Assembly: GCA_903923395.1 (NCBI GenBank)
Contig: CAIXXM010000024.1
Location: 1 to 64,000, forward strand
Source: an uncultured Acidobacteriia bacterium
GTDB taxonomy: Bacteria; Acidobacteriota; Terriglobia; Bryobacterales; Bryobacteraceae
DNA: 64,000 nucleotides
Direction: 5' to 3'
The notes beneath the pieces are model-generated. The model ran no database searches. It saw only the letters and a program-made list of their open reading frames with translations, and was not told the DNA's origin. Position 1 is the stretch's first letter; each line of letters opens with the position of its first letter. This document shows, one piece after another, positions 8,078-36,158 of this stretch. The position numbers and the translations under genes were made by a program.

Positions 8078-8860
8078 TTACAGCGTCCGCAGAAACCAGC
8101 GGGCGGCTTCGAACAGGTAGCCGCACCGGATGGCCTGAAAACCCAGCCTGCCGTAATACTTCTTGCGCAGTTCGGCATCGGCGTTGATGGTGTCCGCCAG
8201 ACCCTCGCAGACAATCTTGAAGTTGTCGAAATTGCGCTTGTAAAAGACCCTGGTCAATTGGTCCGGGCGGCCGTCCTGCATCCAAACGGCTGCATCCATC
8301 GGCAGGTAGGCGGTGGCAAAGTTGATGCAGACACGGTTGAAGAAGAGCGTGTCTTCGTACTTCTTGATCCGCGGCTCAAACTGAATCTTCTCGAACACTC
8401 CCCGCCGGAACAGCACGGAGGCCGGATGGATCACGTTATAGGCGAGAAGATTGATTCGCGCGTCATGCACGTGGTTGTCAGCAAGATAATGCCGCCGGTT
8501 GCCCTCCGCATCCTGCACGGCCACCTGCGAGAACACCAGATCGATACCGGGGTTGGCCTCCAGATAGGCGACTTGTTTCTCCAGCTTGTCAGGGAAGTAA
8601 AAATCGTCATCATCCAGCATGCAGAAGTATTCCCCTCCTGCCTCTGCAAAGCCACGGTTCCTGGCGGCGCTCAGCCCCACTGACTTGTCATTGCGGAGAA
8701 TCCTGACCCGCGGATCACTCCCGGTCCAAGTCACCGGCCTGTCAGAGCCATCATCCACGACGATCACTTCCAGGTCCGGATAGGTTTGTGAGAGGACACT
8801 CTCAATTGCCCTCGGCAGCAGTTGCTGCCGGTTCTTTGTCGTGATCACCACAGAGACCAT
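8078..8860 (-). CDS. Glycosyltransferase family 2
   Basis: A 260-residue GT-A enzyme that probably moves a sugar from a nucleotide donor to a growing glycan at the inner membrane. The N-terminus VSVVITTKNRQQLLPRAIES and VIVVDDGSD form the nucleotide-binding region; the metal-binding acidic run CMLDDDDFYFPDKL is near residue 77. The last ~18 codons are repeated three times downstream (7741-8073). It is the last gene of the EPS initiation operon, 7 nt after the hexapeptide protein. Donor and acceptor cannot be read from sequence. Confidence 0.85.
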   Translation of the reverse strand: MVSVVITTKNRQQLLPRAIESVLSQTYPDLEVIVVDDGSDRPVTWTGSDPRVRILRNDKSVGLSAARNRGFAEAGGEYFCMLDDDDFYFPDKLEKQVAYLEANPGIDLVFSQVAVQDAEGNRRHYLADNHVHDARINLLAYNVIHPASVLFRRGVFEKIQFEPRIKKYEDTLFFNRVCINFATAYLPMDAAVWMQDGRPDQLTRVFYKRNFDNFKIVCEGLADTINADAELRKKYYGRLGFQAIRCGYLFEAARWFLRTL

Positions 8861-8867
8861 AGCCGCG

Positions 8868-10268
8868 TTACTCTCCTTCAGAAATTCTGTGCGCCGCGCT
8901 GAACAAAGACACTGCGTAGCGACGCAGCAAACTTAAGTCATAGCCAAAACTGTGCACCGCGCTGTAAAAGGCTTCGGCGGAGTATGTTTCATCCTGTGTC
9001 GCGCCGGGACCTGCAGCCAGCAGGCTTTCCGTCACCAAACCGGCCTTCGCTGTCAGGCAGGCGACCTTCCAGTCTTCGGGCAGCGCCTTGAGTGTCTCCT
9101 GATCCCGCGGTTCCACGCCGGTCAAGCCGATCTTTCCTGCGATTGCGGCAGGAAGGCCCGGCAGAAAGCGGTGCCAGAAATGCGAGGTAGCGGGCTCATA
9201 CCTGGCAGCGGAGACTTCCACCCACTCCCGGTTGTCGCGTGCAGCGGGCAGAGCAACGAACTTATAGCGGACCGTCTTCCGGCCCGGCGCGAGCAACTTG
9301 GCCAGCGCGCCCGCCAGCCAAAGCGGAGACAGCAGCAGGAAGATCAGCAACGCCAGCAGCCGTTCCGCCGCACCCGGACCGCGCGGCTTGCCGCCGCCAT
9401 CCAGACTTCCCGCGAGAAATGCCTCCGAAATCAGATAGCTTGTCTCCAGCCTGGCGTTGACCAGCAGATTGCGGTCGACGATCACCTGTTGGAGTTCCAG
9501 ACCTGAGCCGATATAAGTGCCTGGGGTGACCATCGAGTTCTCCATGGTGGATTCGTCGTCGATCACGCAGTTCTCGGCAACCACTGCGTAGGGTCCAATG
9601 CGCGTACCTGCACCGATGCGGCAGTTCGGACCGATCCAAAATGGAGGTGTTAGCGTGGCCGTTGGATGGATGCGCACGTTTCTGCCGATCCAGGCTCCCT
9701 CCTGAGCTTTGTTGCCGCTGAGTTCCAGCGTTGCCGCCTTGCCGTCCAGCAGTTGGCGCTGCCCCGCAAGAATATTCGCGGCCGTCTCGGCGGATAGCCA
9801 GGGCAAAGCCAGGGTGTTTGGACAGGTGGCGAAGTCTTCTATTGCCGATGCGGGAAAAAGCCCCCAGTCTGTCCGCTGGATTTCTCCCGCTTCCTGCCGA
9901 ACCATGGCTACAGGAGCACCCGCGCCGGGCCAGGGAACCGCTGGCAGACACTCGCCCGCCGCAAGAAGTACATTCCCGTCCCGCCCCGCGCAAATCATTT
10001 TGAGGAGCCTCGGCAACTTGTCCTGTCCAGACAAGAGGTGGTACGCGAACTTCCGGCCCCACCGTGTTCCATCTCCGAAATAGGCTTCGATTTGTTCCGG
10101 CAGGTGATCAATGACGAAATGGATCTCTGTTGCCCCGCAGCCGATGAGATACTCGAGCGCATGCTGGGAGACGGGTCTGTCTCCAATACGGATCAGCGCC
10201 GCGGGCTGGTGTTCGTCCAGGCCGTGAAGCGCGGGTTTCGATGTTCCACATACGATGATTGCGAGCAC
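8868..10268 (-). CDS. Nucleotidyltransferase-like / hexapeptide beta-helix protein with a degenerate PGT-like C-terminus
   Basis: Three parts are visible in 466 residues. The N-terminus looks like a sugar-nucleotide pyrophosphorylase (RIGDRPVSQHALEYL) but lacks the catalytic GxGTR loop. The middle has left-handed beta-helix hexapeptides (IGPNCRIGAGTRIGPYAVV). Then comes a hydrophobic segment (ALLIFLLLSPLWLAGALAKL) and a tail resembling the end of a bacterial sugar transferase (AGKIGLTGVEP, KAGLVTESL) in which the Asp-Glu dyad is replaced by Pro-Gly. I chose GTG at 10268 because GGAGG lies 9 nt upstream and it just clears the preceding stop at 10271. Likely a membrane-bound scaffold or regulatory pseudoenzyme; activity is unproven. 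Confidence 0.65.
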   Translation of the reverse strand: MLAIIVCGTSKPALHGLDEHQPAALIRIGDRPVSQHALEYLIGCGATEIHFVIDHLPEQIEAYFGDGTRWGRKFAYHLLSGQDKLPRLLKMICAGRDGNVLLAAGECLPAVPWPGAGAPVAMVRQEAGEIQRTDWGLFPASAIEDFATCPNTLALPWLSAETAANILAGQRQLLDGKAATLELSGNKAQEGAWIGRNVRIHPTATLTPPFWIGPNCRIGAGTRIGPYAVVAENCVIDDESTMENSMVTPGTYIGSGLELQQVIVDRNLLVNARLETSYLISEAFLAGSLDGGGKPRGPGAAERLLALLIFLLLSPLWLAGALAKLLAPGRKTVRYKFVALPAARDNREWVEVSAARYEPATSHFWHRFLPGLPAAIAGKIGLTGVEPRDQETLKALPEDWKVACLTAKAGLVTESLLAAGPGATQDETYSAEAFYSAVHSFGYDLSLLRRYAVSLFSAAHRISEGE

Positions 10269-10270
10269 GG

Positions 10271-11665
10271 CTAGGCGCCTCCAATATTTTGCGATTCCTG
10301 CCGCCGGAGTGCCGCCCGGAACTGGAATACGCGGTAGAGAAAGATGACATTGCCGACAAAGTACCGACGCCACATGCGCCGCGGTTCCTGGATGAAGCGG
10401 TAGAGCCACTCCCCGCCCATTTCCCGCAGCCATGCTGGCGCGCGCGGGATGCGGCCGGAGTAGAAATCAAAGAGTCCACCCACGCCAATGGCTACTTTTA
10501 CGCCGGTTTCCCGCAGATGGTCGCGGATGAAGAGTTCCTGCTTTGGGGCACCGAAGGCGATGAGCAGTACATGCGCACCGGAGTCGTGAATGGCTTGGAG
10601 CACGCCCGCTGTTTCCTCCTTGGCGAAGTAGCCGTGTTGCGTGCCGCTGATCTTCACTCCCGGGTGATTCCGTCCGATCCATGCTGCCACATCCTCCGGC
10701 ACACCGGGCTTTCCGCCCAGCAGATAGATTCCCTCCGCCGTGCCGTCCAGCCGGGCGCAGAGCCGGGGGAACAGATCCGTGCCGTTGACGTTTTGCCGCA
10801 AATGGGTATTCAGGATCTTGCCAGCCAGCTTGATGCCGATGCCGTCTCCCAGCACCAGATCCGATTGCTGCAGCAGTTGTTTATAGGCGGCGTTGCGTGC
10901 CGCGATATTGACGCAGTCCGCATTGACGAAGCAGATCTGCACGGGATCTTGCCGCGCGGGGTCGGCAATGTATTCCACGGCCTCATCCATGCTGAGGTTG
11001 TGGATCGGGATGCCGGCCAGATGAATGATGTCGGGTGCTTCAGAAACACCCTCGCCATAGAAGGCCGCGGGAATGGCACGCAGCGCAATCCCCAAATCCC
11101 CGCGGAGACTCTGTGTGTCGATATATTCGGCGTCGACCTGCGCCTCTGTCGCATAAGCGATGTTGGCGCGGCGCCTGATCCACCAAAGACAGATCAAACC
11201 GGGGCGAACCTGATAGCGTTTCCAGGCCAGACGCTCGACGGGATTCGTTTCCGGTGTGGCGGCCCGCGGGCCGATCAGCGCAAGATCCCCGCGCAGCAGG
11301 TTCCACAGCACCGGCAGCTTGGCCAGCGCTGTATCGTCGAGCCCGGAGCGACAAGAGAAATGGTAGAGGTCAAAGGGCGCAGCCCAGCGTCCCAGGCGCA
11401 CGGACTTCGAGATCCCGCCGCCGCGCGACTTCGCGTAGAGCCAAAGTGCTGCCGCGGGCAGAGCCGCCAAGGTGAGCAGCACCAGAGCAATCACTACGTC
11501 CAGCACGCGCTTCAGACCACTGAGCAGAGTGATCCAGACCAGCCACCCTGTGCCGTTCACCAGGCGGCGCTGACTTCTCCGCCGGACTTCCCCCGGCGAA
11601 TACCGGTGCTCCAGTGACTTGATCAGGTCACCGCGTGTTCCGGGGTTTTGAGGATCCGTTGTCAA
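10271..11665 (-). CDS. Fusion of a sugar-transferase-like (PGT) domain and a WecG/TagA/CpsF glycosyltransferase
   Basis: 464 residues. The N-terminal ~215 follow the monotopic phosphoglycosyl transferase plan: membrane helix KRVLDVVIALVLLTLAALPA, then LWNLLRGDLALIGPRA and VRPGLICLW. The DELP segment holding the catalytic Asp-Glu dyad reads AKLP instead. The C-terminal half is a GT26 glycosyltransferase with intact motifs: NADCVNIA, LVLGDGIGIK, VNGTDL, AFGAPKQE, GVGGLFDFYSG and EWLYRFIQEP. GT26 enzymes add the second sugar to a lipid-linked monosaccharide. The PGT-like half may serve only as membrane anchor next to the intact PGT encoded 18 nt upstream. Confidence 0.85.
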   Translation of the reverse strand: MTTDPQNPGTRGDLIKSLEHRYSPGEVRRRSQRRLVNGTGWLVWITLLSGLKRVLDVVIALVLLTLAALPAAALWLYAKSRGGGISKSVRLGRWAAPFDLYHFSCRSGLDDTALAKLPVLWNLLRGDLALIGPRAATPETNPVERLAWKRYQVRPGLICLWWIRRRANIAYATEAQVDAEYIDTQSLRGDLGIALRAIPAAFYGEGVSEAPDIIHLAGIPIHNLSMDEAVEYIADPARQDPVQICFVNADCVNIAARNAAYKQLLQQSDLVLGDGIGIKLAGKILNTHLRQNVNGTDLFPRLCARLDGTAEGIYLLGGKPGVPEDVAAWIGRNHPGVKISGTQHGYFAKEETAGVLQAIHDSGAHVLLIAFGAPKQELFIRDHLRETGVKVAIGVGGLFDFYSGRIPRAPAWLREMGGEWLYRFIQEPRRMWRRYFVGNVIFLYRVFQFRAALRRQESQNIGGA

Positions 11666-11683
11666 TGGCGCGCCTTCGTCATC

Positions 11684-12412
11684 TCAATACGCACCGCGGC
11701 CGATCAAAACGGCGGGTACGGTTTTCGCAAGGAGGATCAAATCGACCCAGAAGCTCTGACTTTCGATGTACTGTACATCGAGAAGAACCTGGCGGTCAAA
11801 GGGGATATCGCCTCGCCCGCTGACCTGCCAGATACAGGTGAGGCCGGGCTTTACATCCAAGCGCCTGCGGTCACTCAGGCTGTACTTCGCCACTTCTTTC
11901 GGCAGCGCCGGGCGCGGTCCCACCAGAGACATCTCGCCCTTCAGCACACACCACAGCTGTGGCAGTTCATCAATGCTGAGCTTGCGGATGATACGGCCAA
12001 TCCAGGTAATCCGGGGGTCCTTCTTCATCTTGAAGGTCACCCCATTGGAGTGATCGTTGTAGGCCGCCAGCTTTTCCTTCAGCGCTTCGGCATTCGTCAC
12101 CATGGACCGGAACTTGGGAAATGGAAATTCCGTGCCCCATTGGCCCACCCGCGTCTGCCAGAAAAATACGGGTCCGCGGTCTGTGAGATAGATGGCCAGA
12201 GCAACCAGTGCGAATAAAGGGCTGCCGGCTAACAGAGCTATTAGCGACACAATGATATCCAGCAGGCGCTTCAGGAATCGGGAGGTCTCAATGGTGGCCC
12301 TCCACAGCCAGCGCTTGCGGAACAAGCGGATGCGCAGGTAAAGTGATTTGCTGCTGTCCGCCGAATAGCGGCGGTCGAGCTCCCGAATCAGATCAATCCG
12401 CTCCATGCTCAC
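11684..12412 (-). CDS. Undecaprenyl-phosphate sugar phosphotransferase (monotopic PGT)
   Basis: A 242-residue initiating enzyme that moves a sugar-1-phosphate from a nucleotide sugar to undecaprenyl phosphate. After a basic N-terminus and a hydrophobic re-entrant helix ([20 protein letters not shown], about residues 48-67) the family motifs are complete: [28 protein letters not shown] with the Asp-Glu dyad, [22 protein letters not shown], and a D-x-x-Y-I-E-S-Q-S tail. It is the small form without the extra N-terminal membrane domain of WbaP. First gene of the minus-strand initiation operon, divergent from the EPS operon; it is the only one of three consecutive PGT-like proteins with an intact active site. 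Confidence 0.92.
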
Positions 12413-12566
12413 TCTTCCACCTTAGGCAGTCCACTTGCGGGCGGCAAGCGAATGATTTAGATACTTTCGCTGCCTGCCAATGACTGCTAGGATTTTACCA
12501 GTAGAGGGATATCTTCCGAAGAGAATTACGGATGACCAGGTCGGATTTTTCCTGACGAAAGGCTTT

Positions 12567-12905
12567 ATGACGCTGAATACCGAACAAATTGGAGATGTGG
12601 TGGTTGTGCTGATGCCGGAGGGTGCGCTCGACGCGGGTGTGGCCCCTGAGTTCAAGGCTGCGGCCGCTGCCCTGGTGGCCCCCGGTGCCAAGGTTGTCTT
12701 CGATCTGAGCACCACCCGTTTCGTGGACAGTTCGGGGCTCGGTGCGATCGTTTCCACCCTGCGGAAGCTCCACGAAGTAAAGGGCGATGTCCGCCTTTGC
12801 TGTCTGAATAAGCCGGTTCGCGCACTTTTCGAACTGGTCAGAATGCATAAGGTTTTCGAAATCTTCAACACACGTGAAGATGCGGTCAACTCTTACGGAG
12901 CCTGA
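12567..12905 (+). CDS. STAS-domain anti-anti-sigma-type regulator (RsbV/SpoIIAA-like)
   Basis: A 112-residue single STAS domain. The phosphorylatable serine lies in TTRFVDSSGLGAIVS; the C-terminal helix region PVRALFELVRMHKVFEIF closely resembles the STAS protein encoded at 31844-32227. I chose ATG at 12567 because GAAAGG lies just upstream; a longer frame opens at 12480 without a ribosome site. It is the first gene of the long EPS operon, 20 nt before the polymerase-like gene. In partner switching, the unphosphorylated form binds an RsbW-type kinase. No kinase is adjacent; the nearest is at 31402-31863. Confidence 0.85.
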   Translation: MTLNTEQIGDVVVVLMPEGALDAGVAPEFKAAAAALVAPGAKVVFDLSTTRFVDSSGLGAIVSTLRKLHEVKGDVRLCCLNKPVRALFELVRMHKVFEIFNTREDAVNSYGA

Positions 12906-12925: not shown

Positions 12926-14302
12926 ATGGGATTCATCGTCATCATTCCGGGAGTGTTTGCGTTCTTCTATTCGCAGACCCGCGGCGTCGCGGCTGCTTTC
13001 CTGGATTTCTATCTCCCTGTCCTGCTGATGCTGCCGGATTATTACCGCTGGGTTCTTCCCGCGCTGCCTGATCCAACATTTGGCGAAGCGATTATCTTCC
13101 CTCTGACAATCGTGTTTCTTCTGCGCAACAAATGGCGCTTTTCTTTTGGTGATCTGCTCTTTGCCGGTTATGTTGCCGCCAATGGTTATTCCGAATTCAT
13201 CAACGCCGGGTTTGCAGACGCGCAGAACCTTGTTTTCGACCTGCTGTGTACCGTCCTATTTCCCTACATTCTCGCCAAGGGATTGATTGAACCGCTCGAT
13301 CTGGGTGTGAAATTCGCCCGCCGTTTCGTCATCCTGCTGTTCTGGCTCTCAGTGATCTCGGTCTATGAGTTCCGCTTCGGGATGTCTCCCTTTCCCGCGA
13401 TACTGGGGCGTTTCTTTCCGGGGCAGGGCGATGGCTGGGTGACTACCTTCCGCTACGGTTTCGCGCGCGTTGCCGGACCTTACGGCCATGCCATTCTCGC
13501 CGGGCTGATCCTGATCATTGGCTTCCGTTTGCAGCGCTGGCTGGATTGGACGGGCGCCTGGGAATCCAAAAGCAAGAACTTCCCCTGGCTGCCCATGACG
13601 AAGGCCCGTGCGATTACCCTCGGGCTTCTCGGCGGCATCATCATGACGATGGTCAGAGGCCCCTGGCTTGGCGGCTTCATCGGCGCGGCATTCACGTTCA
13701 TCGGCCGGGCGAAAAACCGCAAGCTCGCCTTGATGGGCTTCTTCGCCGCCATCCTGCTGGTTGGCGTCCCGTTCGCTATTTCCGCATACAAATACGCTTC
13801 GGTGGGGCGCTCCAATGCCAAGAGTGATTCGCAGGAGACCGCAGCCTACCGCAAGGAACTTCTCGACAAGTACGTCGACATCGTCAAGGAGCATGCGGTT
13901 TGGGGCTGGGGCACCAGCGGCTGGCCGAAAGTCGGCGGGATGCCCTCCATCGACAACTATTACCTGCTGCTCGCGTTGATGCACGGCGTTGTCTGCATGG
14001 GGATTCTGCTGTTCAGTCTGCTCTACTATTCCGTCCGACTGGTGGTGCGCGGCATGTCCCGTCCGCCGCCCGCTGTGAGAGGCGGTTCGCTGGCCTTCAC
14101 ACTGGCTGCGATTCATGTCGCGATCCTCATCACCATTGCCACTGTCTTTATGGGCGGGCAGGTTCTCGCGATCTGGGCCATGATGGCGGGTTGGTCGGAA
14201 GGCTATCTCAATTCCAAACGCGAGTCCGGGCTGGCGACGGCTGCGGTGCACTCCGGCGTAACCCGGGCAACTCCGTTCGTTTTCGAAAGGGTGGTGGCGT
14301 AA
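12926..14302 (+). CDS. O-antigen ligase/polymerase-like membrane protein (Wzy-type)
   Basis: 458 residues, with many hydrophobic segments along most of its length and a C-terminal hydrophilic loop followed by further membrane helices, the usual layout of Wzy polymerases and O-antigen ligases. The segment VWGWGTSGWPKVGGMPSIDN near residue 330 matches the conserved region that precedes the last helices in the Wzy_C family. It likely polymerises lipid-linked repeat units in the periplasm. It lies between the STAS regulator and a glycosyltransferase whose start follows the stop by 1 nt. Polymerase versus ligase cannot be decided here; polymerase is favoured because Wzx, Wza and Wzc-like genes share the operon. 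Confidence 0.75.
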   Translation: MGFIVIIPGVFAFFYSQTRGVAAAFLDFYLPVLLMLPDYYRWVLPALPDPTFGEAIIFPLTIVFLLRNKWRFSFGDLLFAGYVAANGYSEFINAGFADAQNLVFDLLCTVLFPYILAKGLIEPLDLGVKFARRFVILLFWLSVISVYEFRFGMSPFPAILGRFFPGQGDGWVTTFRYGFARVAGPYGHAILAGLILIIGFRLQRWLDWTGAWESKSKNFPWLPMTKARAITLGLLGGIIMTMVRGPWLGGFIGAAFTFIGRAKNRKLALMGFFAAILLVGVPFAISAYKYASVGRSNAKSDSQETAAYRKELLDKYVDIVKEHAVWGWGTSGWPKVGGMPSIDNYYLLLALMHGVVCMGILLFSLLYYSVRLVVRGMSRPPPAVRGGSLAFTLAAIHVAILITIATVFMGGQVLAIWAMMAGWSEGYLNSKRESGLATAAVHSGVTRATPFVFERVVA

Positions 14303-15527: not shown

Positions 15528-15528
15528 A

Positions 15529-19906: not shown

Positions 19907-20419
19907 ATGTTTGAGAATCTCAGGGAAGATTGGCGGACTTATGAAGGCGACATCACCAGACAGGGACTCTGGGTCATGGTGGTGTATCGCTTTGGGCGCT
20001 GGCGGTACACCGTAAAACCCGCCCTGTTCCGCGTGCCGCTGTCCTTTCTCTATAAGGTATTCAAGCTGCTAAGCCAGATTCTTACCGGGATTGATTTGCC
20101 CTGCGAGGTCGGACTGGGCCACCGTTTCCGCATTGAACACTTCGGGGGAATTATCATCAGCGGGGATGCTGTTTTTGGTGACGATGTGATTATCCGGAAC
20201 AATGTGACCGTGGGACTTCGCCGCACCGGCGTACGGGGCGCGCCACGCTTCGGAAACCGTGTGGATATCGGCGCCGGCGCGGTTATCCTCGGTGATATAA
20301 CGATTGGCGACGATGTAAGTATTGGCGCAAATGCTGTTGTCCTCAAGGATGTACCCCCCAACTCCATCGCGATCGGCGTGCCTGCCACGGTGCGTCCGAA
20401 GAAGGGAGCGCAAGCATGA
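19907..20419 (+). CDS. Serine-acetyltransferase-like hexapeptide acyltransferase
   Basis: 170 residues. The N-terminal helical part (LREDWRTYEGDITRQGLWVM) is like CysE-type enzymes of polysaccharide loci. The C-terminal left-handed beta-helix has repeats such as DDVIIRNNVTVG, NRVDIGAGAVILG and DVSIGANAVVLKDVPPNS. The catalytic His is likely in GLGHRFRIEHFGG near residue 75. Within EPS operons such proteins usually O-acetylate a sugar rather than make cysteine. It lies 3 nt after a glycosyltransferase and overlaps the Wza-type gene by 4 nt. Confidence 0.8.
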   Translation: MFENLREDWRTYEGDITRQGLWVMVVYRFGRWRYTVKPALFRVPLSFLYKVFKLLSQILTGIDLPCEVGLGHRFRIEHFGGIIISGDAVFGDDVIIRNNVTVGLRRTGVRGAPRFGNRVDIGAGAVILGDITIGDDVSIGANAVVLKDVPPNSIAIGVPATVRPKKGAQA

Positions 20420-21411
20420 GGCGGATCTATCTGCTCAGCCTCATTCCGTGGCTTCTGTTCCAGCCCGAACTGGTGGCACAGAAGCCCGATAAGAAGGCAC
20501 CGCCGCCGCCGGAATTTCACATCCGTCAGAAGCAACGCGAGATCTCGCCGGAAGATATTGTCAAAGAGTTCTCCGCGCCGCCCATCGAATCCTATACGCT
20601 CTTTCCCGGCGATGAAATCAACATCGAAGTCTGGGGCCACGCCGAACTTTCCGGCAAACACATTCTGGGGCCGGATGGCAAGATTACTCTTCCGGTTGCC
20701 GGTCCGATCAAGATCTCTGAACTTACGAGAGAACAAACGCAGGATATTGTTACGTCGACGCTGGGGCGTTACTATGCGGATATCTCCGTAACTGTCCGCG
20801 TGGATAAGTACAGCTCCTGGCATATCTATATCCTTGGCCGTGTTGGTTCACCGGGGGCTCTCCAGTTTGATGTCCAGCCGAATCTGCTCCAGGTTCTGAC
20901 CCGTGCCGCAAGTCTGCCGATCGGCGGTATTGGCGCTGATAAAGCAGGGCTTGTCCGCTGTGCGATCTTCCGCGGGAATGACAAGATCGTTTGGGTGGAT
21001 CTGAAGCAGTTACTGGCCCGTGGCAACCTTGCGCTGAACATCAACCTCGCCCGCAATGACTTGATCTATCTTCCTGATGCCGATGACCAGCTGATCTATG
21101 TTCTTGGGGAAGTGAAGACACCGGGTGCACTCCGTCTCACTCCGGATATGTCTCTGCTGGATGCTTTCGCCCTCGCAGGAGGGGCGACTGAGGATTCGAA
21201 GAAGCACGTTACTCTCATCCGTCCCAGTATTGGCAAACAGATTGATTTCACACTGGGGGAGATCCTTTCTCCCAAGAAGAACACAAATTACTCTCTCGAA
21301 GAGGGCGACATCATCTATGTCCCCAAGAGCGGCATCGCTACTTTCGGCTACATCATGCAAAAGGCTAATCCGCTTTCCAGCTTTGCCATTATCGCGAACA
21401 CCCTCAAATAA
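20416..21411 (+). CDS. Polysaccharide export protein (Wza family)
   Basis: 331 residues, periplasmic/outer-membrane export channel component. A signal peptide (IYLLSLIPWLLFQPELVAQ) has no lipobox cysteine, unlike E. coli Wza, so it is not an obvious lipoprotein. The Poly_export domain begins at YTLFPGDEINIEVWGHAEL (about residue 58), followed by two SLBB-type domains (IYILGRVGSPGALQF and IYVLGEVKTPGALRL). Together with the Wzc-like product of the next gene, 2 nt on, it would carry finished polymer across the envelope. Confidence 0.9.
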   Translation: MRRIYLLSLIPWLLFQPELVAQKPDKKAPPPPEFHIRQKQREISPEDIVKEFSAPPIESYTLFPGDEINIEVWGHAELSGKHILGPDGKITLPVAGPIKISELTREQTQDIVTSTLGRYYADISVTVRVDKYSSWHIYILGRVGSPGALQFDVQPNLLQVLTRAASLPIGGIGADKAGLVRCAIFRGNDKIVWVDLKQLLARGNLALNINLARNDLIYLPDADDQLIYVLGEVKTPGALRLTPDMSLLDAFALAGGATEDSKKHVTLIRPSIGKQIDFTLGEILSPKKNTNYSLEEGDIIYVPKSGIATFGYIMQKANPLSSFAIIANTLK

Positions 21412-26876: not shown

Positions 26877-28122
26877 TACCCGCCAGATTCGATACCTGCT
26901 CGTAACTCATATCCCGTTCGCGCGAAACGCCGATGGCGGCATCGTTCTCGACAGCTTGTGGGCCCGCGATCTCGAAGGCCTTTGCGGCGGACCCTGGAAA
27001 CTTCGTGTTTGTGGTCCGGAACTCAAAACTGCGGAAGGCATGAAGACCTGGGGTCCCAGTGCTTGCACCCTGCCTGCGGACGGTCCCATTACTTTCACTG
27101 GCTTCCCCCCTGTGGCGCGCCGCGTCGATGCCTGGAAGTGGCCCGCCATCCGCTCCGTTCTCAGGCGTGAGGTTGCACAGGCTGACCTGGTGCATACGTC
27201 TAACTTCTTCCAGCCCTATGTCGGACTATCTTATGCACACGACCTCGCCGTCAAGCTGGGTAAGAAGACGCTGTTTGTCATCGCGGAAGATTTCGATGAC
27301 ATGCTGGGCTGGGAGTTCGTCCGTACCGGCGGCACACAGCGTGAAATTCAACGCCGTACCAAACAACTGGAGTTACTCCATGACCGCGTTGCCCGTACGG
27401 CATCGAACGCCAGTCTGACATTTCTGCACACCCCCGCAGCAGTACTTCGCTACCGCCTCCACACCCGGAACTCCATCGCCATCCGTCAGCCCGGCCATGA
27501 AACCAAGGATGTCATCAGTGCCAGCGCTTTTGAAAGTAAGTGCGCCTATCTGCGCGCGGGGAAGCCTTTGGTTATCATTGCTGCCTGCCGTCATAAGTGG
27601 CTGAAGGGTTTGGACTTTCTCATCCGTGCCATAGGAATCTTAAGGACAAGGGGCATTGCCGTGGAAGCCCGCCTCTATGGTTCGGGCGAACAAGGTCCGG
27701 AACTGAAATCGCTCACCGCAAGGCTCGGTCTCAATGCTGCCATTTCTTTTCCTGGCTCTCTGCCTCCCGGCGAAGCTGTCTATCAGGCGATTGGCGATGG
27801 TCACATCTTCGCCATGCCACACCGCACCACGGATTTCGGCCGCGCCTTCTTTGACGCCATGGCTGGCGCTTCTCCTGTGATTGCCTTTCGCACTCCCGCC
27901 AGCCTGGAAACAGTACGCGATGGCGTCGATGGGCTGCTTGCCTCACTCGATGATGTGGAGAGCCTCGCTTCAGCAATTGGCCGCTTGCATCAGGACCGCG
28001 AACTGCTAATCCGTCTTTCCGAAGCCGCCCGCGAGCGCGCGCTCAACAACACCCGTTCTGAATGGTACAGGCTCCGCGCAAGCTGGGCAGCCGACCTTTT
28101 CGCAGGAGACCCCAATGTCTGA
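26869..28122 (+). CDS. Glycosyltransferase family 4
   Basis: 417 residues. GT-B layout: an N-terminal segment with THIPFARNADGGIVLDSLWA, then the donor half VIIAACRHKWLKGLDFLIRA, ARLYGSGEQGPELKSL and a late region FGRAFFDAMAGASPVIAFRT, where the first Glu of the usual E-x7-E pair is replaced. Activity is likely but the altered motif deserves note. It overlaps the previous gene and the flippase gene by 8 nt each. Confidence 0.78.
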   Translation: MPDTRQIRYLLVTHIPFARNADGGIVLDSLWARDLEGLCGGPWKLRVCGPELKTAEGMKTWGPSACTLPADGPITFTGFPPVARRVDAWKWPAIRSVLRREVAQADLVHTSNFFQPYVGLSYAHDLAVKLGKKTLFVIAEDFDDMLGWEFVRTGGTQREIQRRTKQLELLHDRVARTASNASLTFLHTPAAVLRYRLHTRNSIAIRQPGHETKDVISASAFESKCAYLRAGKPLVIIAACRHKWLKGLDFLIRAIGILRTRGIAVEARLYGSGEQGPELKSLTARLGLNAAISFPGSLPPGEAVYQAIGDGHIFAMPHRTTDFGRAFFDAMAGASPVIAFRTPASLETVRDGVDGLLASLDDVESLASAIGRLHQDRELLIRLSEAARERALNNTRSEWYRLRASWAADLFAGDPNV

Positions 28123-29695
28123 TAACCAGCAGGAAAACCACGCAAAAACCGTACGTGACGCCATTTCCCATAACTTGCTGGTCGATATGGCCGCGCGCAT
28201 TGGCTATCTGGGCTCCCGCTTCTTTGTCCCGCCCTTTATTCTTGCTCACGTTGGCATGGAAGCTTATGGACTCTGGGCCGCGGCATTTATCCTGGTTTCC
28301 TATGTCGGTGTTTCCACCATGGGGATTTCCGGTGTTTATATCAAGTTCGCCGCTGAATACTCTGCCAGACGGGAATATCAGAAAGTCAACGAACTTCTTT
28401 CGACGGGCCTGGGTCTTACTGTTCCCCTTTGTACTGTGATCTTCGGACTGCTCTGGCTCTTCTGGCCGCATGTTGTGGACTATTTACACGTAGCGCCTAA
28501 CTTACAGGAAGATGCCCGCGTTGTAGTTCTCTCGGTCGTAGCGATCTTTCTTGCCTCCATTAGTCTTTCGGCTTTCCGGGACGTGTTGAACGGCCTCCAA
28601 AAGTCAGCCCTGATGCAGATCATCTGGGTCATCGGCTACCTTACGGAAACAGCCTTGATCTTCTGGCTGGTTGGGACCGGACACGGCGTGCGCGGTCTTG
28701 CGAATGCCTTCCTGATCCGTACCGCCATTGAGATCGGACTCTCTATTATCCTGGCGTTCCGGCTCCTGCCATGGCTGCGTGTTTCGCCCCGGCTGATGAC
28801 CAGAGAAGCCATGAAGACCCTCGCTTCATTCGGAGGTATTGTTCAGATCCAGAGCCTGCTCGCCATTGGTCTGAATTCCGTGGAACGCGCCATGGCAGCA
28901 CCTCTTATCGGTCTCGCCGCGACCGGACTTCTCGATATCGGCAATAAGCTCCCTTCCATGGCTGCCTCTCTGCCCAGCGCCTTCGCGGGCTCCTTCGTTC
29001 CCGCGGCATCTTATCTGCAAGGCGGCTTGGAAGGTTCGCAGGAACAGCGCGAAGCAATCCGCAAGCTCTATCTCAAAGGCGCACGTTACATGAACCTGAC
29101 CTGCGCCTATATCTGTGGTTTCATCGCGGCGCTACCCCTGCCTCTGCTCGATGTGTGGATGGGTAAACGTTACCCCGGCGCGGCATTCCTCATGGTTGTC
29201 TTTACCATCCAAACCCAGGTTCACCTGATGACCGGCCCTGGCACCTCCATCCTGAAGGGCGTAGGGCGTCCGAAGGAAGAGTTCCACTATGCCATCCCCA
29301 ATGTGATCGCTCTGCTCCTTGCCGTACCTGCGATCCGTCTGATCATGGGCGAATGGACCGCTATCGGCATCGGAATCGCTGTCACAGTCGCCACTGTTGC
29401 TGCCGCGGTGTGGTTCCTGCGCCACGCGAATAAGATCCTCGGCGTGACGGTCTGGCAGTACTTCAAAACCGTTGCCTGGCCGGGCATCGTTCCCTATCTT
29501 GTGGGCCTGCTCTTCACTTACCCGGTCGTCTTACTCTCGGAAACACTGGGCCGCTGGCAAATGGCCGGAGTCGTCATCGTTGCCGGTATCATTTACTCCG
29601 CCCTGCTGGCCTGGGTAACTCTCCAATTTGTCTTTGAAACCGGCGAGCGGCAGTGGTTCAAGGCTGTGATCGCCTCAAAGCTGGGCCGCAAATGA
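28115..29695 (+). CDS. Wzx-type oligosaccharide flippase (MOP superfamily)
   Basis: 526 residues with about 12-14 hydrophobic segments spread along its length, the plan of Wzx/RfbX transporters that flip lipid-linked repeat units to the periplasmic face. The N-terminus (LVDMAARIGYLGSRFFVPPF) and the early VSTMGISGVYIKFAAEYSAR are typical of the polysaccharide-synthesis branch. It lies downstream of five glycan genes and overlaps the GT61-like gene by 4 nt. Confidence 0.87.
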   Translation: MSDNQQENHAKTVRDAISHNLLVDMAARIGYLGSRFFVPPFILAHVGMEAYGLWAAAFILVSYVGVSTMGISGVYIKFAAEYSARREYQKVNELLSTGLGLTVPLCTVIFGLLWLFWPHVVDYLHVAPNLQEDARVVVLSVVAIFLASISLSAFRDVLNGLQKSALMQIIWVIGYLTETALIFWLVGTGHGVRGLANAFLIRTAIEIGLSIILAFRLLPWLRVSPRLMTREAMKTLASFGGIVQIQSLLAIGLNSVERAMAAPLIGLAATGLLDIGNKLPSMAASLPSAFAGSFVPAASYLQGGLEGSQEQREAIRKLYLKGARYMNLTCAYICGFIAALPLPLLDVWMGKRYPGAAFLMVVFTIQTQVHLMTGPGTSILKGVGRPKEEFHYAIPNVIALLLAVPAIRLIMGEWTAIGIGIAVTVATVAAAVWFLRHANKILGVTVWQYFKTVAWPGIVPYLVGLLFTYPVVLLSETLGRWQMAGVVIVAGIIYSALLAWVTLQFVFETGERQWFKAVIASKLGRK

Positions 29696-30729: not shown

Positions 30730-31405
30730 ATAGTTCCAGCGCTGAGTTCAACAGATCTTCAAGGTTGCCGAACATCGAGTCATAGTCCGCGAAACTCAGC
30801 GAGATGACTTCCAGCGCTTCTTCCCGGCCATAAGTGGAGTGGATCTCACAGCTGTTCCCCGAAGCGCCGGGGTGCAGCTTGTAAGTCAGGAAGTAATGCC
30901 GCAGGCGGTCCAGCACCACGCTTGGAACTTGCGAGATATCTTCGCAGTGGCCGTAAGTCGCATCACCCTTCAGCACTGCGATAATCTTGTCATCCGCTTC
31001 TCCGCCATCCAGCATGCGGAACCCGCCGATCGGAACGCACTCCACAATGATGTTGCCATGCGTAATGGGCCGGTCTGTCAGGACGCACACATCCAGCGGA
31101 TCGCGGTCCCCTTCCACATGCTTCCCCGCCTTGGCGGAAGAATAGGCGGCAACCTTCTCCCCGCAATAACTCTGCGGCAGAAAGCCATAGAGTGCCGGAC
31201 AGATATTCGAATACTTCTGCGGCCGGTCCACTTTGAGATAGCCGCTCAACTTGTCGATTTCGTACTTCACCGTATCCGCCGGCACCACTTCGATGAAGCA
31301 GTTCACCCGCCCCGGTGCATGGTCACCGGGAAAGATACCATGCCACGGATGCGGTTTGCAGAGCACCTGCAAGAGATTCCAGAGCGGTTGTTTGGGCGGC
31401 TTCAT
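30719..31405 (-). CDS. ppa: Inorganic pyrophosphatase (family I)
   Basis: A 228-residue soluble enzyme that hydrolyses pyrophosphate to phosphate. The metal-binding signature appears as GDRDPLDVCVLTDRP near residue 100; other family elements are FIEVVPADTVKYEIDK and YGFLPQSYCGEK. It is longer than the E. coli enzyme and resembles the group often annotated in Acidobacteria and eukaryotes. Its start overlaps the RsbW-like stop by 4 nt, so it is the last gene of the partner-switching operon. Pyrophosphate released by nucleotide-sugar synthesis is an obvious substrate in this setting. Confidence 0.9.
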   Translation of the reverse strand: MKPPKQPLWNLLQVLCKPHPWHGIFPGDHAPGRVNCFIEVVPADTVKYEIDKLSGYLKVDRPQKYSNICPALYGFLPQSYCGEKVAAYSSAKAGKHVEGDRDPLDVCVLTDRPITHGNIIVECVPIGGFRMLDGGEADDKIIAVLKGDATYGHCEDISQVPSVVLDRLRHYFLTYKLHPGASGNSCEIHSTYGREEALEVISLSFADYDSMFGNLEDLLNSALELFKR

Positions 31406-31863
31406 GTGCGGGCAGTTTCCTCTTCTTCACGGGCCGTTGTCATCATGTGGATACGGTTGATCCCGTTATTGCTGGTGTAATTTACATTGTCCATGCTGCG
31501 GTGAATAATTTCGAGTCCCAGACCGCCCTCCGGCAGCGCTTCGATATCCGTCTCATCGAAATCCAGAACATTCGAGCCATGCCGCAATACCTCAGCCTGC
31601 TGCGGCGGCATGGGCTTGCCCGAATCGATGACTTCCAGTTCGACGCGGCCCTCGTGAATCTCCATCGTGAAAGTAACTGCCTGATCCGGCGCATGGTCAT
31701 AAGCATGCCGCACCGCATTGGACGCCGCTTCCACCACCGCGGTCTGTATCCGGAACCTCATCTCCTCCGGCAGGCCAAACGCCTCACACGCAGAATGCAC
31801 AGTCATCCCGAGTTGCGACACCGCATTCAACTTACTCTCGATGTCAATCTTGAGGCGCGTCAT
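31402..31863 (-). CDS. RsbW-like anti-sigma factor / serine kinase (GHKL)
   Basis: 153 residues. The GHKL ATPase boxes are complete: N-box VVEAASNAVRHAYDH near residue 43, G1 VIDSGKPM near 80, and G2 LPEGGLGLEIIH near 110. Such kinases phosphorylate the serine of a STAS partner and otherwise hold a target, usually a sigma factor. It overlaps the STAS gene by 20 nt and the pyrophosphatase gene by 4 nt. No sigma factor gene is near, so the target is unknown; the STAS protein at 12567 is a possible second partner. Confidence 0.88.
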   Translation of the reverse strand: MTRLKIDIESKLNAVSQLGMTVHSACEAFGLPEEMRFRIQTAVVEAASNAVRHAYDHAPDQAVTFTMEIHEGRVELEVIDSGKPMPPQQAEVLRHGSNVLDFDETDIEALPEGGLGLEIIHRSMDNVNYTSNNGINRIHMMTTAREEEETART

Positions 31864-32227
31864 TGCTCCCTGCCTCCTGTTTGCCAGTCAACCCCTCCAG
31901 TGCGGCAACAGCATCGTCAGCGTTTTCGAAAATCCGGAAGACCCGGTCCATCCGGGTAAGTTTGAATAATGACCGGACGGGTCCCTGCAGCGAGCAGACG
32001 GCGATCTCGCCTTCTGTACTGACCAGCTTCAAAGAACTGATCAGCGCGCCCAAGCCGCTCGAATCCACGAATTGAACAGCAGTGAAATCCAGAACCTGTA
32101 ACTTATGGCCCGCCGCGAAACAGGCTGCCAGACGTGACTTCAGATCCGCGGCATCCTCCACGGTGAGCCGGTTCGTCCGCAGCAGCAGCACGGCAACTCC
32201 GCCCCGGTGTTCCTTATGCAACAACAT
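31844..32227 (-). CDS. STAS-domain anti-anti-sigma factor (RsbV-like)
   Basis: 127 residues. The phospho-acceptor region is VQFVDSSGLGALISS near residue 59; PVRSLFKLTRMDRVFRIF repeats the same helix seen in the STAS protein at 12567. I chose ATG at 32227, since GGAAGG sits 9 nt ahead of it but abuts the earlier ATG at 32236. It overlaps the upstream phosphatase gene by 14 nt and the RsbW-like gene by 20 nt, so all three are translationally linked. Confidence 0.88.
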   Translation of the reverse strand: MLLHKEHRGGVAVLLLRTNRLTVEDAADLKSRLAACFAAGHKLQVLDFTAVQFVDSSGLGALISSLKLVSTEGEIAVCSLQGPVRSLFKLTRMDRVFRIFENADDAVAALEGLTGKQEAGSNDAPQD

Positions 32228-33494
32228 GGTTTGCATCCTTCCCGCTCTGCGCAGTGAACTCTATCGCGACCACCGAAATATCATCCCGGAACTCCAGCCC
32301 CTCTTTCCAACTGTCCAATGCCGTCGCGATACTCTGCAGTGTTGCTTCCAGCGCTTCCCCGGCGCGCGGCGTGACCGTCTCCAGAAAGCGCTCCGAACCA
32401 AACGCCACACCCTCCCGGTTGATACATTCCGTCACCCCGTCTGAGTAAAGGATCAATCGGTCGCCGGGACGAAACGGCGTCTCCACACAATCAAACTCAA
32501 TCTCCGGCAGCATGCCCACCGGCATTCCCGTACCCCCGAAATAAGCCGGAGTGCCGTTCGCCGGAATCAGTACCGGACTCGGATGTCCCGCCTGCGCGAA
32601 CGTCAACACCTGCCGTCGTGTATCCAGCGTGCCGTAGATCATCGTGAAATAGCGGTCATCATTGCCCTGGAAGCGACGGTTGACCTCATGAATCACATCA
32701 GAGGGATACACCGGTTCGAACTGGCCAGTAACCGCATTGAACTTCTTGAGCGGCGACCCGTGGGTGGAATCCGGCGTCAGCACCATGCTCAGCGTCACGG
32801 AAAGCATTGCCGCCGGCACACCGTGCCCAGAAACATCCAGCGAGTAGAACCCCAGGATGCCCGGTGCCAACTCAAAGAAATTCAGGCTATCCCCTGCCAC
32901 ATAGCGGCTGGGCTTGAAATACCAGCGAAACTCCACGCCGCCCGTATTCAGCACCGGCGCGGGCAGCATGTTTCTCTGCACCCATGACGCTGCTTTCAAA
33001 TCTTCTTCAATCAAGGCGTATGCTTCGCTCAACTGGCGGTTGGCATTCGTCACCATTGTGTAGGCGCGTTCCAGATACTCGTTCGTCTCCGCCAGTTCTC
33101 TGTTCCGCTGCGCCAAACCGCTTTCCAACTGCAGGATTCGTTCTCCCGCGCGGATAGCCACCCGCAGTTCTTCGCGGCTCACCGGCTTCACCACAAAATC
33201 ATCGGCACCGGCATCCATGCCTTCGATGAGGTCAGCCTTCTTTCCCTTGGCTGTGCAGAGGATCACATAGACATAGTGATCAAAGGCCGCCGCGCGTATC
33301 CTGCGGCACAGGTCCAGCCCGCTCAGCCCTGGCATCAGCCAGTCACTGACCACCAGACTGATTTCACCCTGTTGAATCCAGGTCCACGCTTCTTCCGCAT
33401 CCCCTGAGGCCAGCACCTCATGCCCGGAATCCCGCAACAGCATCGTGTATAGCTTTCGTGCCCAGGGGTCGTCGTCGACGAGTAGTATCTTCAT
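32214..33494 (-). CDS. Response-regulator PP2C phosphatase (RsbU/RsbP-like, REC-SpoIIE)
   Basis: 426 residues. ATG at 33494 has GGAAGG upstream and begins the receiver exactly (KILLVDDDPWARK); the open frame extends far upstream but that part is a shadow of the opposite gene. The receiver phospho-Asp is in VVSDWLMPGLSG near residue 50. A coiled linker (about 130-185) leads to a SpoIIE-type PP2C domain with AGDSLNFFEL, LDVSGHGVPAAML and FRDDISVVAIEF metal sites. It should dephosphorylate the STAS partner when its receiver is phosphorylated. The cognate kinase is not adjacent; the hybrid kinase at 2914 or LytS-like kinase at 38177 are candidates only. Confidence 0.9.
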   Translation of the reverse strand: MKILLVDDDPWARKLYTMLLRDSGHEVLASGDAEEAWTWIQQGEISLVVSDWLMPGLSGLDLCRRIRAAAFDHYVYVILCTAKGKKADLIEGMDAGADDFVVKPVSREELRVAIRAGERILQLESGLAQRNRELAETNEYLERAYTMVTNANRQLSEAYALIEEDLKAASWVQRNMLPAPVLNTGGVEFRWYFKPSRYVAGDSLNFFELAPGILGFYSLDVSGHGVPAAMLSVTLSMVLTPDSTHGSPLKKFNAVTGQFEPVYPSDVIHEVNRRFQGNDDRYFTMIYGTLDTRRQVLTFAQAGHPSPVLIPANGTPAYFGGTGMPVGMLPEIEFDCVETPFRPGDRLILYSDGVTECINREGVAFGSERFLETVTPRAGEALEATLQSIATALDSWKEGLEFRDDISVVAIEFTAQSGKDANHVVA

Positions 33495-33534
33495 GCGGCT
33501 GCCTTCCGAGTCTACTATTTTCCAGTGCCCGTCT

Positions 33535-33556
33535 GAATGCTTTGGCCAAAGCATTC
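33535..33556. promoter_or_regulatory. Perfect 22-bp palindrome in a divergent promoter region
   Basis: GAATGCTTTGG (33535-33545) is followed directly by its exact reverse complement (33546-33556), with no spacer. It lies 41 bp upstream of the RsbU-like start and 65 bp upstream of the DUF1592 gene start, where a dimeric regulator could act on both. It has no T-run, so a terminator is unlikely. Confidence 0.6.
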
Positions 33557-33620
33557 CACGGATTCCCGCCGGGGCGATAAGATTGAAAATCACACCATGA
33601 AGCGAGAGGTGGCCGCTGCC

Positions 33621-36158
33621 ATGAAACGATTCCTGCTCTTCCTTATCCCCGCTGCTGTCGTGTTCGCCCAGCCGCCCGTACCTGTGCGGACCTTCCTCAA
33701 CGCGAACTGCACCGGCTGCCACAACCCGAAGCTCAAGCAGGGCGGCCTCGACCTCACCACTCTCAGGTTCGACACCGCCAACCCCGATAATTTCGCCACC
33801 TGGGTCAAAGTACATGACCGCGTTCGTGACGGCGAGATGCCTCCCGTGAAAACGCCCTCGCTGACCAAGCCCGTTCGCGATTCCTTCCTCACCGCGCTCT
33901 CCACCCCGCTCATCGCAGCCGATAAGGCCCGGTACGCCGCCCAGGGCCGCGCCACCTGGCGTCGCCTCAACCGCTACGAATACGAGAACACCCTGCGTGA
34001 CCTCCTCGGCGCACCCTGGCTCCAGATCAAGGAAATGCTGCCTGAAGATGGCGAAGCTTTCCGCTTCAACAAGGTGGGTGACGCCCTCGATGTTTCCCAC
34101 GTACAGATGAACCAGTACCTCGCCGCCACGGACTACGCCTTGCGCGAAGCACTGCCCAAGACGCTGCAGAAGCCCGCCGCCGTAACCAAACGCTATTACG
34201 TCCGTGACCAGGGCTCCTTCAATAACAAGATCCAGTTCCCGGGCGGCAATGAGCGCAACGCGTTTCCCGTTGTTGGCGATGTTGCCGATATCCCCGCCCT
34301 CAAGAAGACCGGACCCATCACCGTTGGTCCCGCGAAGCCGGAGATCCGCGAGCAGGAAGGCATCGGTCTCGTCTGCTCCGCCTATGAGCCCGTGGAGCCC
34401 CGCTTCAATCAGTTCACAGCACCAGTCGCCGGACGCTATAAGATCCGCATGAAAGCCCACACCATGTGGATGGGGGCCATGAAAGGGCCGCGCTGGTGGA
34501 AGCCCGACGCCGAAAACATCTCCAAGGGCCGCACCGACGAGCCCATCACGCTGTACTCCGAAATTCCCCCGCGGCAAATGCGCCGTCTCGGCAGTTTCGA
34601 CGTCCACCCCGAACCCTCCGTCACCGAATTCGACGTCCAACTGCTCAAAGGCGAATCCATCCGGCCCGATGCCACCCGCTTCTTCCGCTCCCGTCCGCCC
34701 GGGGACTGGCGCAACCCCCTCGCCACCCCTGAAGGTCAGCCCGGCGTCGTCTACCAGTGGCTTGAAGTGGAAGGCCCCATCGTTGACCAGTGGCCCTCCC
34801 AGGGCACCCAGCTTCTGTTCGCGGACCTCCCTTACAAAGTGAACGCCGCCGGTGTCGCCGATTTCCAGCCCAAGGACGTCAATGCCGATACACGCCGCCT
34901 CCTGAGCGCCTTCCTCACCCGCGCCTACCGTCATCCCGTGCCCGCTGATGACGTGGAACGCTTCGCCAAACTCGCGCAAAAAGCCATGGCCGCAGGTTTC
35001 TCATTTACTGATGCCATGCTCTCCACTTACTCCGCTATCCTGTGTTCCCCCGGCTTCGTCACCCTCGAACAGAAACCCGGGAAGCTCGATAGTTGGGCGC
35101 TCGCCTCGCGCCTGTCGTACTTCCTCACCAACACTGAGCCCGATTCGCAGCTCCGCCAGTTGGCCGCTTCCAATCAACTGCGCAACCCTGAAGTCCTGCG
35201 GGCACAGACCAAGCGCCTCATCGCGGATGCCAAAGCGCAAAACTTCGTCACCGCGTTCCTCGATTACTGGCTCGATCTCCGCAAGATCAACATCAGCTCC
35301 CCGGATGCCTCACTCTACGGCGATTACTATCTCGATGACTTCCTCGTCGAATCCGCCGGTGATGAATCCCGCGCCTTCTTCTCGGAACTCCTGCAGAAGA
35401 ATCTGCCCGCCCGCAACGTGGCCGCTTCAGACTTCGTGATGATCAACGAACGCCTTGCGCAGCAATACGGCATTTCCGGAGTGACCGGCACGGCCATCCG
35501 CCGCGTTCCTCTCCCGGCAGATTCTCCGCGAGGCGGGTTCCTCACGCAGGCCAGCGTTCTCAAAGTCACCGCCAACGGCACCACTACGTCGCCGGTACTG
35601 CGCGGGGTCTGGATCAACGAACGGATTCTCGGCCGCCCCGTGCCGCCGCCCCCGCCCAACGTCCCGGCCGTGGAACCCGACACGCGCGGTGCCACCACCA
35701 TCCGGGAGCAACTCGCGAAACACCGCAGCCAGACGACGTGCAGTTCCTGCCATGCGAAAATCGATCCGCCCGGCTTCGCTCTCGAAAGCTTCGATGTCGC
35801 TGGCGGCTACCGCGAAAAGTACCGCGCCCTTGGTGACGGTCCCAAAGCCCCCGGCATCGGCAAAGGCGGCCACTTCTTCGATTTCCACTACGGCCCTGCG
35901 GTCGATGCCTCCGGTACCCTGCCGGATGGCCGCAAGTTCAACGATGTCCGTGATCTGAAGAACCTGCTGCTGGCCGATGAGCGCCAACTCGCCCGTAACC
36001 TCGCCACCCATCTGATCACCTATTCAACAGGTGCTCCCGTCCGCTTCGGTGACCGTCCCCAACTGGAGGCCATCCTCGACCGGGCAAAGGAAAGTCAGTA
36101 TGGCGTCGCCTCTCTGATCCAGGCCATCGTCCAAAGTGATCTGTTCCTCTCGAAGTAA
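33621..36158 (+). CDS. DUF1592/DUF1588-type cytochrome-like secreted protein (first copy)
   Basis: About 845 residues. A signal peptide ([15 protein letters not shown]) is followed by a heme c motif CTGCH at residues 30-34; a second, CSSCH, is near residue 707 after a proline-rich linker ([11 protein letters not shown]). The central part matches the DUF1587-DUF1592-DUF1588-DUF1585 series of Planctomycetes and Acidobacteria. I chose ATG at 33621 since GAGAGG precedes it; ATG at 33597 is the alternative. The role is not established; the family always travels with DUF1552 proteins, as here 45 bp downstream. Confidence 0.88.

Follow-up and report, generated by a model that had tools for sequence, protein, structure and literature searches.

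The Asp-Glu pair of monotopic phosphoglycosyl transferases (PGTs) has been named as their catalytic dyad, and the accessory domain of unknown function (DUF) of the large PGT WbaP has been proposed as a nucleotide sensor (PMC10942596; this and the other PMC sources are cited here from excerpts). The excerpts describe regulation of the Wzx/Wzy pathway as still poorly understood (PMC10942596) and post-translational mechanisms as incompletely understood (PMC12802240). Elsewhere, the non-catalytic GMPPA acts on GMPPB and has GDP-mannose as a ligand (PMC11228364), and the STAS protein SypA acts via an as yet unknown target (PMC10120452). How Wzx/Wzy synthesis is gated at its first membrane step is largely an open question. 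Here we analysed a 64,000-nucleotide stretch from an uncultured Acidobacteriia bacterium of the Bryobacteraceae (contig CAIXXM010000024.1, positions 1 to 64,000; hereafter the window), in which three adjacent minus-strand genes at 8868-12412 encode a PGT of active type (P3) and two proteins, P2 and P1, with PGT-like domains that lack the dyad (pseudo-PGTs). We lean towards the view that this trio forms a conserved complex that primes the synthesis of a Wzx/Wzy exopolysaccharide, with the pseudo-PGTs as membrane docking modules and under STAS control; contact between the proteins and their function we infer from sequence.

P3 (11684..12412, minus strand; 242 amino acids, with KFRSM, SIDELPQ and GPRP motifs) has PF02397 as its sole Pfam match (E-value = 4.3e-64), and all 17 aligned P3 sequences have the dyad and the proline of the re-entrant helix, as active monotopic PGTs do. 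Pfam finds in it neither the PF13727 DUF nor the N-terminal four-helix bundle of large, WbaP-type PGTs, and by these sequence features P3 is a small monotopic PGT of active type. P2 (10271..11665, minus strand) joins a pseudo-PGT domain (11039..11629) to a glycosyltransferase domain of family GT26 (WecG/TagA/CpsF; approximately 10322..11032). The latter assignment follows from the PF03808 match (3.5e-58) and from a TagA-like fold: in Foldseek searches with the AlphaFold model of P2 (mean predicted local distance difference test score, pLDDT, 84.4), TagA/TarA structures are the top 14 matches, followed by PglC and WbaP, and the GT26 domain superposes on TagA 7mpk with an E-value of 1.4e-16. The pseudo-PGT domain matches PF02397 at 1.1e-22, covering the C-terminal half of that model, and active PGTs (the P3 set) at 1.3e-39 in profile-profile comparison. 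When its profile was searched against the PDB, PGTs (PglC and WbaP entries) were the sole matches at E-values up to 1, the best being 1.9e-29. The domain has lost KFRSM and the stretch up to the dyad, and retains the membrane helix, GPR and PGL; in the window the dyad segment reads ALAKLP, with AK at the dyad position.

P1 (8868..10268, minus strand; 466 amino acids) is composed of a nucleotidyltransferase-like N-terminal domain (9819..10268), a left-handed beta-helix (9444..9701) and a C-terminal pseudo-PGT (8880..9371), all with approximate limits. Its listed start at 10433 overlaps P2; GTG at 10268 lies 2 nt past the P2 stop, has GGAGG just upstream and yields an N-terminus that agrees with those of P1 relatives, and is therefore probably the true start. 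In Pfam the window P1 matches beta-helix families only, and the three-part architecture was assigned because an orthologue (L037) clears the cut-offs for PF02397 (9.3e-11) and NTP_transferase (1.2e-5), and the P1-like protein of a Chloroflexota metagenome-assembled genome (MAG; L066) matches NTP_transferase (1.5e-28) and Bac_transf (1e-23). A GGxGTRL loop at the N-terminus together with PKP is the signature of active sugar-1-phosphate nucleotidyltransferases. Both are absent from the expected place in every one of the 20 sequences (of 22 aligned) compared there, and the loop is absent from L039 as well; GxGTR flags raised over whole P1 proteins fall outside that place. When a profile was made solely from the C-termini of ten P1 proteins, it retrieved from the PDB, at E-values up to 1, exactly seven distinct sequences, all PGTs, the best being PglC 8e37 (7.4e-12, nearly full length), with 8g1n and WbaP entries also present. 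In profile-profile comparison the P1 C-terminus matches active PGTs at 2.1e-10 and P2 at 2.4e-11. A Bac_transf search of the window's own genome gave six matches, which include P3 and P2 and do not include P1. The top four Foldseek matches of the P1 model are PglC and WbaP, with E-values of 1e-3 to 1e-2 (best 1.1e-3). At the place of the dyad the window P1 carries FLPGLPA, and LTGVEP and AGL are found as well.

These motifs, and SIDELPQ in P3 and LAKLP in P2, stand where the initial annotation of this DNA had read them, on three adjacent minus-strand genes. It had proposed one active and two dyad-less PGT-like domains that keep other elements of the fold, and the alignment of 17 P3, 16 P2 and 18 P1 sequences bears this out. 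The roles of the aligned residues, including the KFRSM lysine and the re-entrant-helix proline, we take to be those in PglC. The Asp-Glu pair is present in 17/17 P3, 0/16 P2 and 0/18 P1 sequences; its Glu is gone from every P2 and P1, and its Asp persists in a single P2 (L044) and a single P1 (L041). The KFRSM lysine follows the same pattern (17/17, 0/16 and 0/18). The re-entrant-helix proline, on the other hand, is kept in 17/17 P3, 15/16 P2 and 18/18 P1, and the KGE glycine in all sequences of the three sets (17/17, 16/16 and 18/18); every P2 and P1 retains two core glycines. Since none of the 16 P2 and none of the 18 P1 sequences in the alignment has the pair, its absence is no chance event, and P2 and P1 have presumably lost PGT activity. 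A dyad substitution was also seen in a PF02397-type protein of an Erysipelotrichaceae MAG (L110, 8725-9300), which reads RLNELPQ, the catalytic Asp being replaced by Asn.

Besides those of the window, 15 P2 and 17 P1 sequences from nine family groups have open frames and conserved motifs. The ratio of nonsynonymous to synonymous substitution rates (dN/dS) stays under 1 for all pairs compared, although dS exceeds 1 in most pairs and the values are hence rough: 0.07-0.09 for P3; 0.11-0.13 in two close pairs and 0.18-0.39 against the window for the P2 pseudo-PGT; 0.15-0.18 in close pairs and 0.19-0.25 against the window for GT26; and 0.12-0.25 in three close pairs and 0.40-0.52 against the window for the P1 pseudo-PGT.

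To see how widely the trio occurs among Acidobacteriota, a search that the initial annotation had suggested, we scanned genomes with P1. In the phylum scan 187 of 396 genomes matched at an E-value of 1e-3; the lower matches listed were partial, spanning the nucleotidyltransferase or the beta-helix, and full-type P1 was found in 11 genomes, the window's own included (best E-values of 1.4e-24 or lower). The class scan matched 16 of 399 genomes, 11 of them at full length (own included), and the five with partial P1 (G471, G507, G628, G716 and G745) were left out. The regions of 17 relatives were compared with the window, 10 of the 15 from the phylum scan and seven from the class scan. As in the window, the three genes are found side by side with one another's company in 15 of these 17 relatives with full-type P1. 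The two exceptions are L152, whose region begins within GT26 at the contig end, and L042, which has P1 and no P2; in L040 the gene order is altered, SpoIIE and STAS genes lying between P1 and P2. In L042 (9415-13483) P1, P3 and a STAS gene are accompanied by a lone GT26 gene on the opposite strand where P2 would be expected. The five phylum-scan loci left out of these counts (L047-L051) match whole P1 at 51-63 bits: L047 contains a match to PGTs, L049 weakly matches the P1 C-terminus, and neither P2 nor P3 was matched in L050 or L051. The remaining one, L048 (G334, 8881-12899), contains a P1-like gene, a PGT and a GT26 that weakly matches the pseudo-PGT, and might represent a diverged trio. 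A phylum scan with the P2 pseudo-PGT matched 10 of 396 genomes, nine of them at more than 110 bits and all nine within the 11 full-type-P1 genomes; the tenth, G318 (77.8 bits), was not counted. The two P1 genomes outside those nine are G036, whose locus L042 has no P2, and G385, whose P2 (in L046) is divergent and scores 46 bits.

Other phyla were searched with the P2 domain and the best 80 of 517 confirmed loci, mostly active PGTs, were taken, so that the distribution is a lower bound. Four of the 80 have a P1-like gene above 100 bits (L052, L054, L064 and L066), and related sets, some reduced, are thereby found in Chlorobiota, Chloroflexota and Shewanella. In a Chlorobiaceae MAG (L064) the active PGT is accompanied by a P1-like gene and by a GT26 whose PGT domain is degraded, scoring 33 bits against the P2 profile and falling just under the Bac_transf cut-off (9.8e-6). 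Among these loci this MAG is, next to Acidobacteriota, the only source of a full trio with a clear P2 pseudo-PGT. In Chlorobium N1 (L052) a PGT was found together with a P1-like gene. The Chloroflexota MAG L066 has a PGT, a P1-like gene and a GT26 (9655-11175) that is joined to STAS domains rather than to a pseudo-PGT. Shewanella gelidii (L054) encodes GT26 and an active PGT in one open reading frame (ORF), followed by a P1-like gene; the segment before its GT26 is only weakly similar to the P2 pseudo-PGT, scoring about 14 bits with the P2 profile when taken alone. GT26-active PGT fusions were also found in Ruegeria and in a Rhizobiales MAG (L053 and L056), and such single-chain fusions argue, indirectly, that the GT26 and PGT steps work in contact. 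An N-terminal domain shared by L064 (6846-7250) and L052 (8393-8959), with nothing but a sub-cut-off HNH_3 match in Pfam, precedes the pseudo-PGT in L064 and is apparently a separate gene in L052; it looks receiver-like by eye, for which Pfam gives no confirmation. Plasmid scans returned seven records for P1, none spanning 80% of the query, and 410 for the P2 domain, none over 80%.

In a tree of 82 sequences, 45 of them cross-phylum PGTs, P2 is placed on a long stem outside the active PGTs. In a tree of 51 sequences (10 loci picked from 18, and 21 other PGTs), P2 groups with P3 and with the active PGTs of L052, L054 and L064, not L066 (Shimodaira-Hasegawa-like approximate likelihood ratio test support 89). 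The approximately unbiased (AU) test rejects none of the groupings P2+P3 (p = 0.85), P1+P2 (0.745) and P1+P2+P3 (0.709). Given the 51-sequence tree and the AU tests, an origin of P2 through duplication of P3 is plausible.

A further recurrent feature is the presence of STAS and SpoIIE genes. In the window a STAS-domain protein (RsbV/SypA-like; 12480..12905, plus strand) directly adjoins P3, from which it is divergently oriented. Of the 17 relatives, 14 have a STAS gene in the fetched region, the exceptions being L043, L046 and L152 (whose region spans 9 kb), and 13 have a SpoIIE-type protein near the trio. In eight SpoIIE-type proteins taken from relatives and from other phyla, Pfam recognised the SpoIIE domain in all and an HATPase_c_2 kinase domain in four. 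Outside Acidobacteriota, STAS and SpoIIE are both present in L052, L064 and L066 and both absent from L054. By comparison, a profile of the trio's STAS genes found STAS in 0 of 76 other PGT loci (from the best 80 of 517) at an E-value of 1e-5, a fair though imperfect control, as many of these loci span less than 18 kb and the profile favours the trio's own STAS. The window also holds a complete partner switch at 31405-34979, about 20 kb from the trio, consisting of a response-regulator and SpoIIE phosphatase protein (32214..34979), a second STAS-domain protein (31847..32260) and an RsbW-like HATPase_c_2 serine kinase domain (31405..31887), all on the minus strand and the latter two as stop-to-stop ORFs. 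The association of STAS/SpoIIE genes with the PGT trio is new in this analysis. By synteny, the STAS protein at 12480, set by the SpoIIE/HATPase switch, probably controls the priming complex, and the module beside the trio shifts weight from pure scaffolding to regulation.

Taken together, these observations suggest the following scenario. P3 would transfer a sugar-phosphate onto undecaprenyl phosphate, and the dead PGT fold of P2 would dock GT26 in the same membrane leaflet beside it, so that the second sugar could be added at once. The dead PGT fold of P1 would dock the degenerate sugar-nucleotide-binding domain and the beta-helix on the same assembly, making P1 a scaffold and probably also a nucleotide-sugar sensor, and the adjacent STAS protein, set by the switch, would probably control the complex. 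Docking is suggested because catalytic residues are lost while the membrane element is kept, and because of purifying selection, synteny and the fusions; regulation is suggested because P1 has two degenerate enzyme domains and switch genes lie nearby. The initial annotation had joined the dead domains to a GT26 and to a hexapeptide-helix protein, and had seen in them a membrane anchor gathering the sugar-transfer steps around the active PGT. Its GT26 stands, its description of P1 was incomplete in lacking the degenerate nucleotidyltransferase, and its anchor agrees with the re-entrant helix, co-occurrence, adjacency and fusions, yet leaves out the regulation to which STAS/SpoIIE point. Several points weigh against a docked priming complex. 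GT26 proteins such as TagA own a membrane appendage, which makes an extra anchor not obviously needed. P2 is missing from L042; the 18-kb region of Chlorobium N1 (L052) gave no GT26 at an E-value of 1e-5; nearby pseudo-PGT-GT26 proteins were found neither in L052 nor in L066; and the Shewanella segment shows but a weak likeness to the P2 pseudo-PGT. The rough dN/dS values rise to 0.39 (P2) and 0.52 (P1) against the window. Finally, the AlphaFold models are of single chains, that of P1 has a mean pLDDT of 59.9 (residues 371-460 reach 79-90 except the last few), and its Foldseek match is not independent because PGT sequences stood in the model's alignment.

The same evidence can be read in other ways. 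That P2 and P1 are functionless decaying paralogues or annotation artefacts might be thought from their shortened PGT domains, which diverge faster than P3, yet intact frames and motifs in relatives and dN/dS below 1 throughout led us to reject this, and conserved synteny too makes its probability practically negligible. It is also very improbable that they are still PGTs with relocated catalytic residues. Asp-Glu pairs do occur away from the dyad column in 5/16 P2 (four near the former KFRSM site) and, in varied places, in 14/18 P1, the commonest being DExY/F in the C-terminal helices, at residues 426-427 in the window P1. However, none is placed alike in more than half of the sequences, the maximum at one place being 9/18 in P1 and 4/16 in P2, the window P2 has none, and the KFRSM lysine is gone from all P2 and P1 sequences.

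More weight is due to the idea that the dead domains hold a lipid-linked substrate, either passing the P3 product to GT26 or retaining undecaprenyl phosphate. P2 keeps the GPR arginine (15/16; 17/17 in P3), the PGL proline and glycine (16/16) and the Asp/Tyr of the C-terminal helix (16/16), and its sequences share a conserved WW.R.RANI-type motif specific to P2, all of which would fit a retained or altered pocket; P1, in which the GPR arginine is kept in 4/18 and the PGLT threonine and SGR arginine in 0/18, could not act in the same form, and we consider such a role rather unlikely. A serious, if tentative, possibility is that P1 is mainly a regulator, its pseudo-nucleotidyltransferase sensing a nucleotide sugar and gating P3 allosterically through PGT-pseudo-PGT contact, and so playing in trans the part that the DUF has within large PGTs. 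The NTP_transferase homology with loss of the loop and PKP, and a small P3 devoid of the large-PGT accessory domain, are consistent with this, as are the proposed sensor role of the WbaP DUF (PMC10942596) and GMPPA (PMC11228364); the second half of the P1 N-terminal domain, however, is the worst-modelled part of P1. We think it unlikely that a phosphorylation-controlled STAS protein acts directly on the PGT/pseudo-PGT complex, with P1 as a nucleotide-sugar sensor made of two dead enzymes of the first pathway steps; were it so, a similar arrangement might explain what STAS proteins such as Vibrio SypA act on.

The surroundings of the trio agree with a role of the priming complex in exopolysaccharide synthesis. 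A GT2 glycosyltransferase gene (8078..8860, minus strand) starts 7 nt past P1 and is probably in one operon with it. On the plus strand are a Wzy-like polymerase/ligase (Wzy_C in Pfam; 12926..14302), a Wza-like exporter (Poly_export, SLBB; 20416..21411) and a Wzx-like flippase (28115..29695), whose MatE match is weak and under the curated cut-off. An EpsE-like GT4 at 14304 and an EpsU-like GT2 at 17703 match under the cut-offs of their models, and a GT61 is found at 29653. Judged by this predicted gene content, the locus is a Wzx/Wzy exopolysaccharide cluster. A 716-residue protein at 21414-23564 has no Pfam match, and its homologues adjoin the Wza-like gene in L039, L040, L041 and L052; it is perhaps a diverged Wzc-type protein. 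Another, of 743 residues at 15475-17706, has no Pfam match above the cut-off and no homologue at an E-value of 1e-8 in the loci searched.

If the proposed scenario is right, one active and two dead PGT folds, a GT26 and a degenerate nucleotidyltransferase make up an assembly devoted to priming. With STAS/SpoIIE genes as its recurrent neighbours, the trio offers a testable candidate for STAS targets in polysaccharide loci. A dead PGT domain is not described in the excerpts of the closest precedents (PMC10942596, PMC12802240, PMC11228364, PMC10120452, PMC8256260 and PMC4517449), and among the open-access papers listed in our searches no title or beginning of an abstract describes PGT pseudoenzymes, of which the family survey by O'Toole et al. 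(2021) may still make mention. Compared with PglC and WbaP, P3 has the same fold, re-entrant helix, dyad and motifs, whereas in P2 and P1 the dyad is missing, as are the KFRSM lysine and much of the intervening segment. Bifunctional monotopic PGTs (PMC10942596) likewise join a pathway enzyme to a PGT-fold domain, but there the fused domain is catalytic, while here the fused fold is dead and the active PGT separate. P2 shares its GT26 domain with TagA/TarA, WecG and EpsA and adds the N-terminal pseudo-PGT. As in the EpsZ-EpsW pair of Myxococcus xanthus (excerpt of PMC12802240), an exopolysaccharide-priming PGT would have a dedicated non-catalytic partner; EpsZ, however, is a large PGT activated by the response regulator EpsW, whereas here a small PGT has pseudo-PGT partners and a STAS neighbour. 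The SypA/SypE system of Vibrio fischeri (PMC10120452, PMC8256260, PMC4517449) also places STAS and a serine kinase/phosphatase in a polysaccharide locus, although the excerpts of PMC10120452 and PMC8256260 make no mention of a pseudo-PGT. Finally, GMPPA/GMPPB (PMC11228364) offer the parallel of a non-catalytic nucleotidyltransferase paralogue as regulator, from which P1 differs in being fused to a pseudo-PGT and in sitting with a PGT rather than with a pyrophosphorylase.

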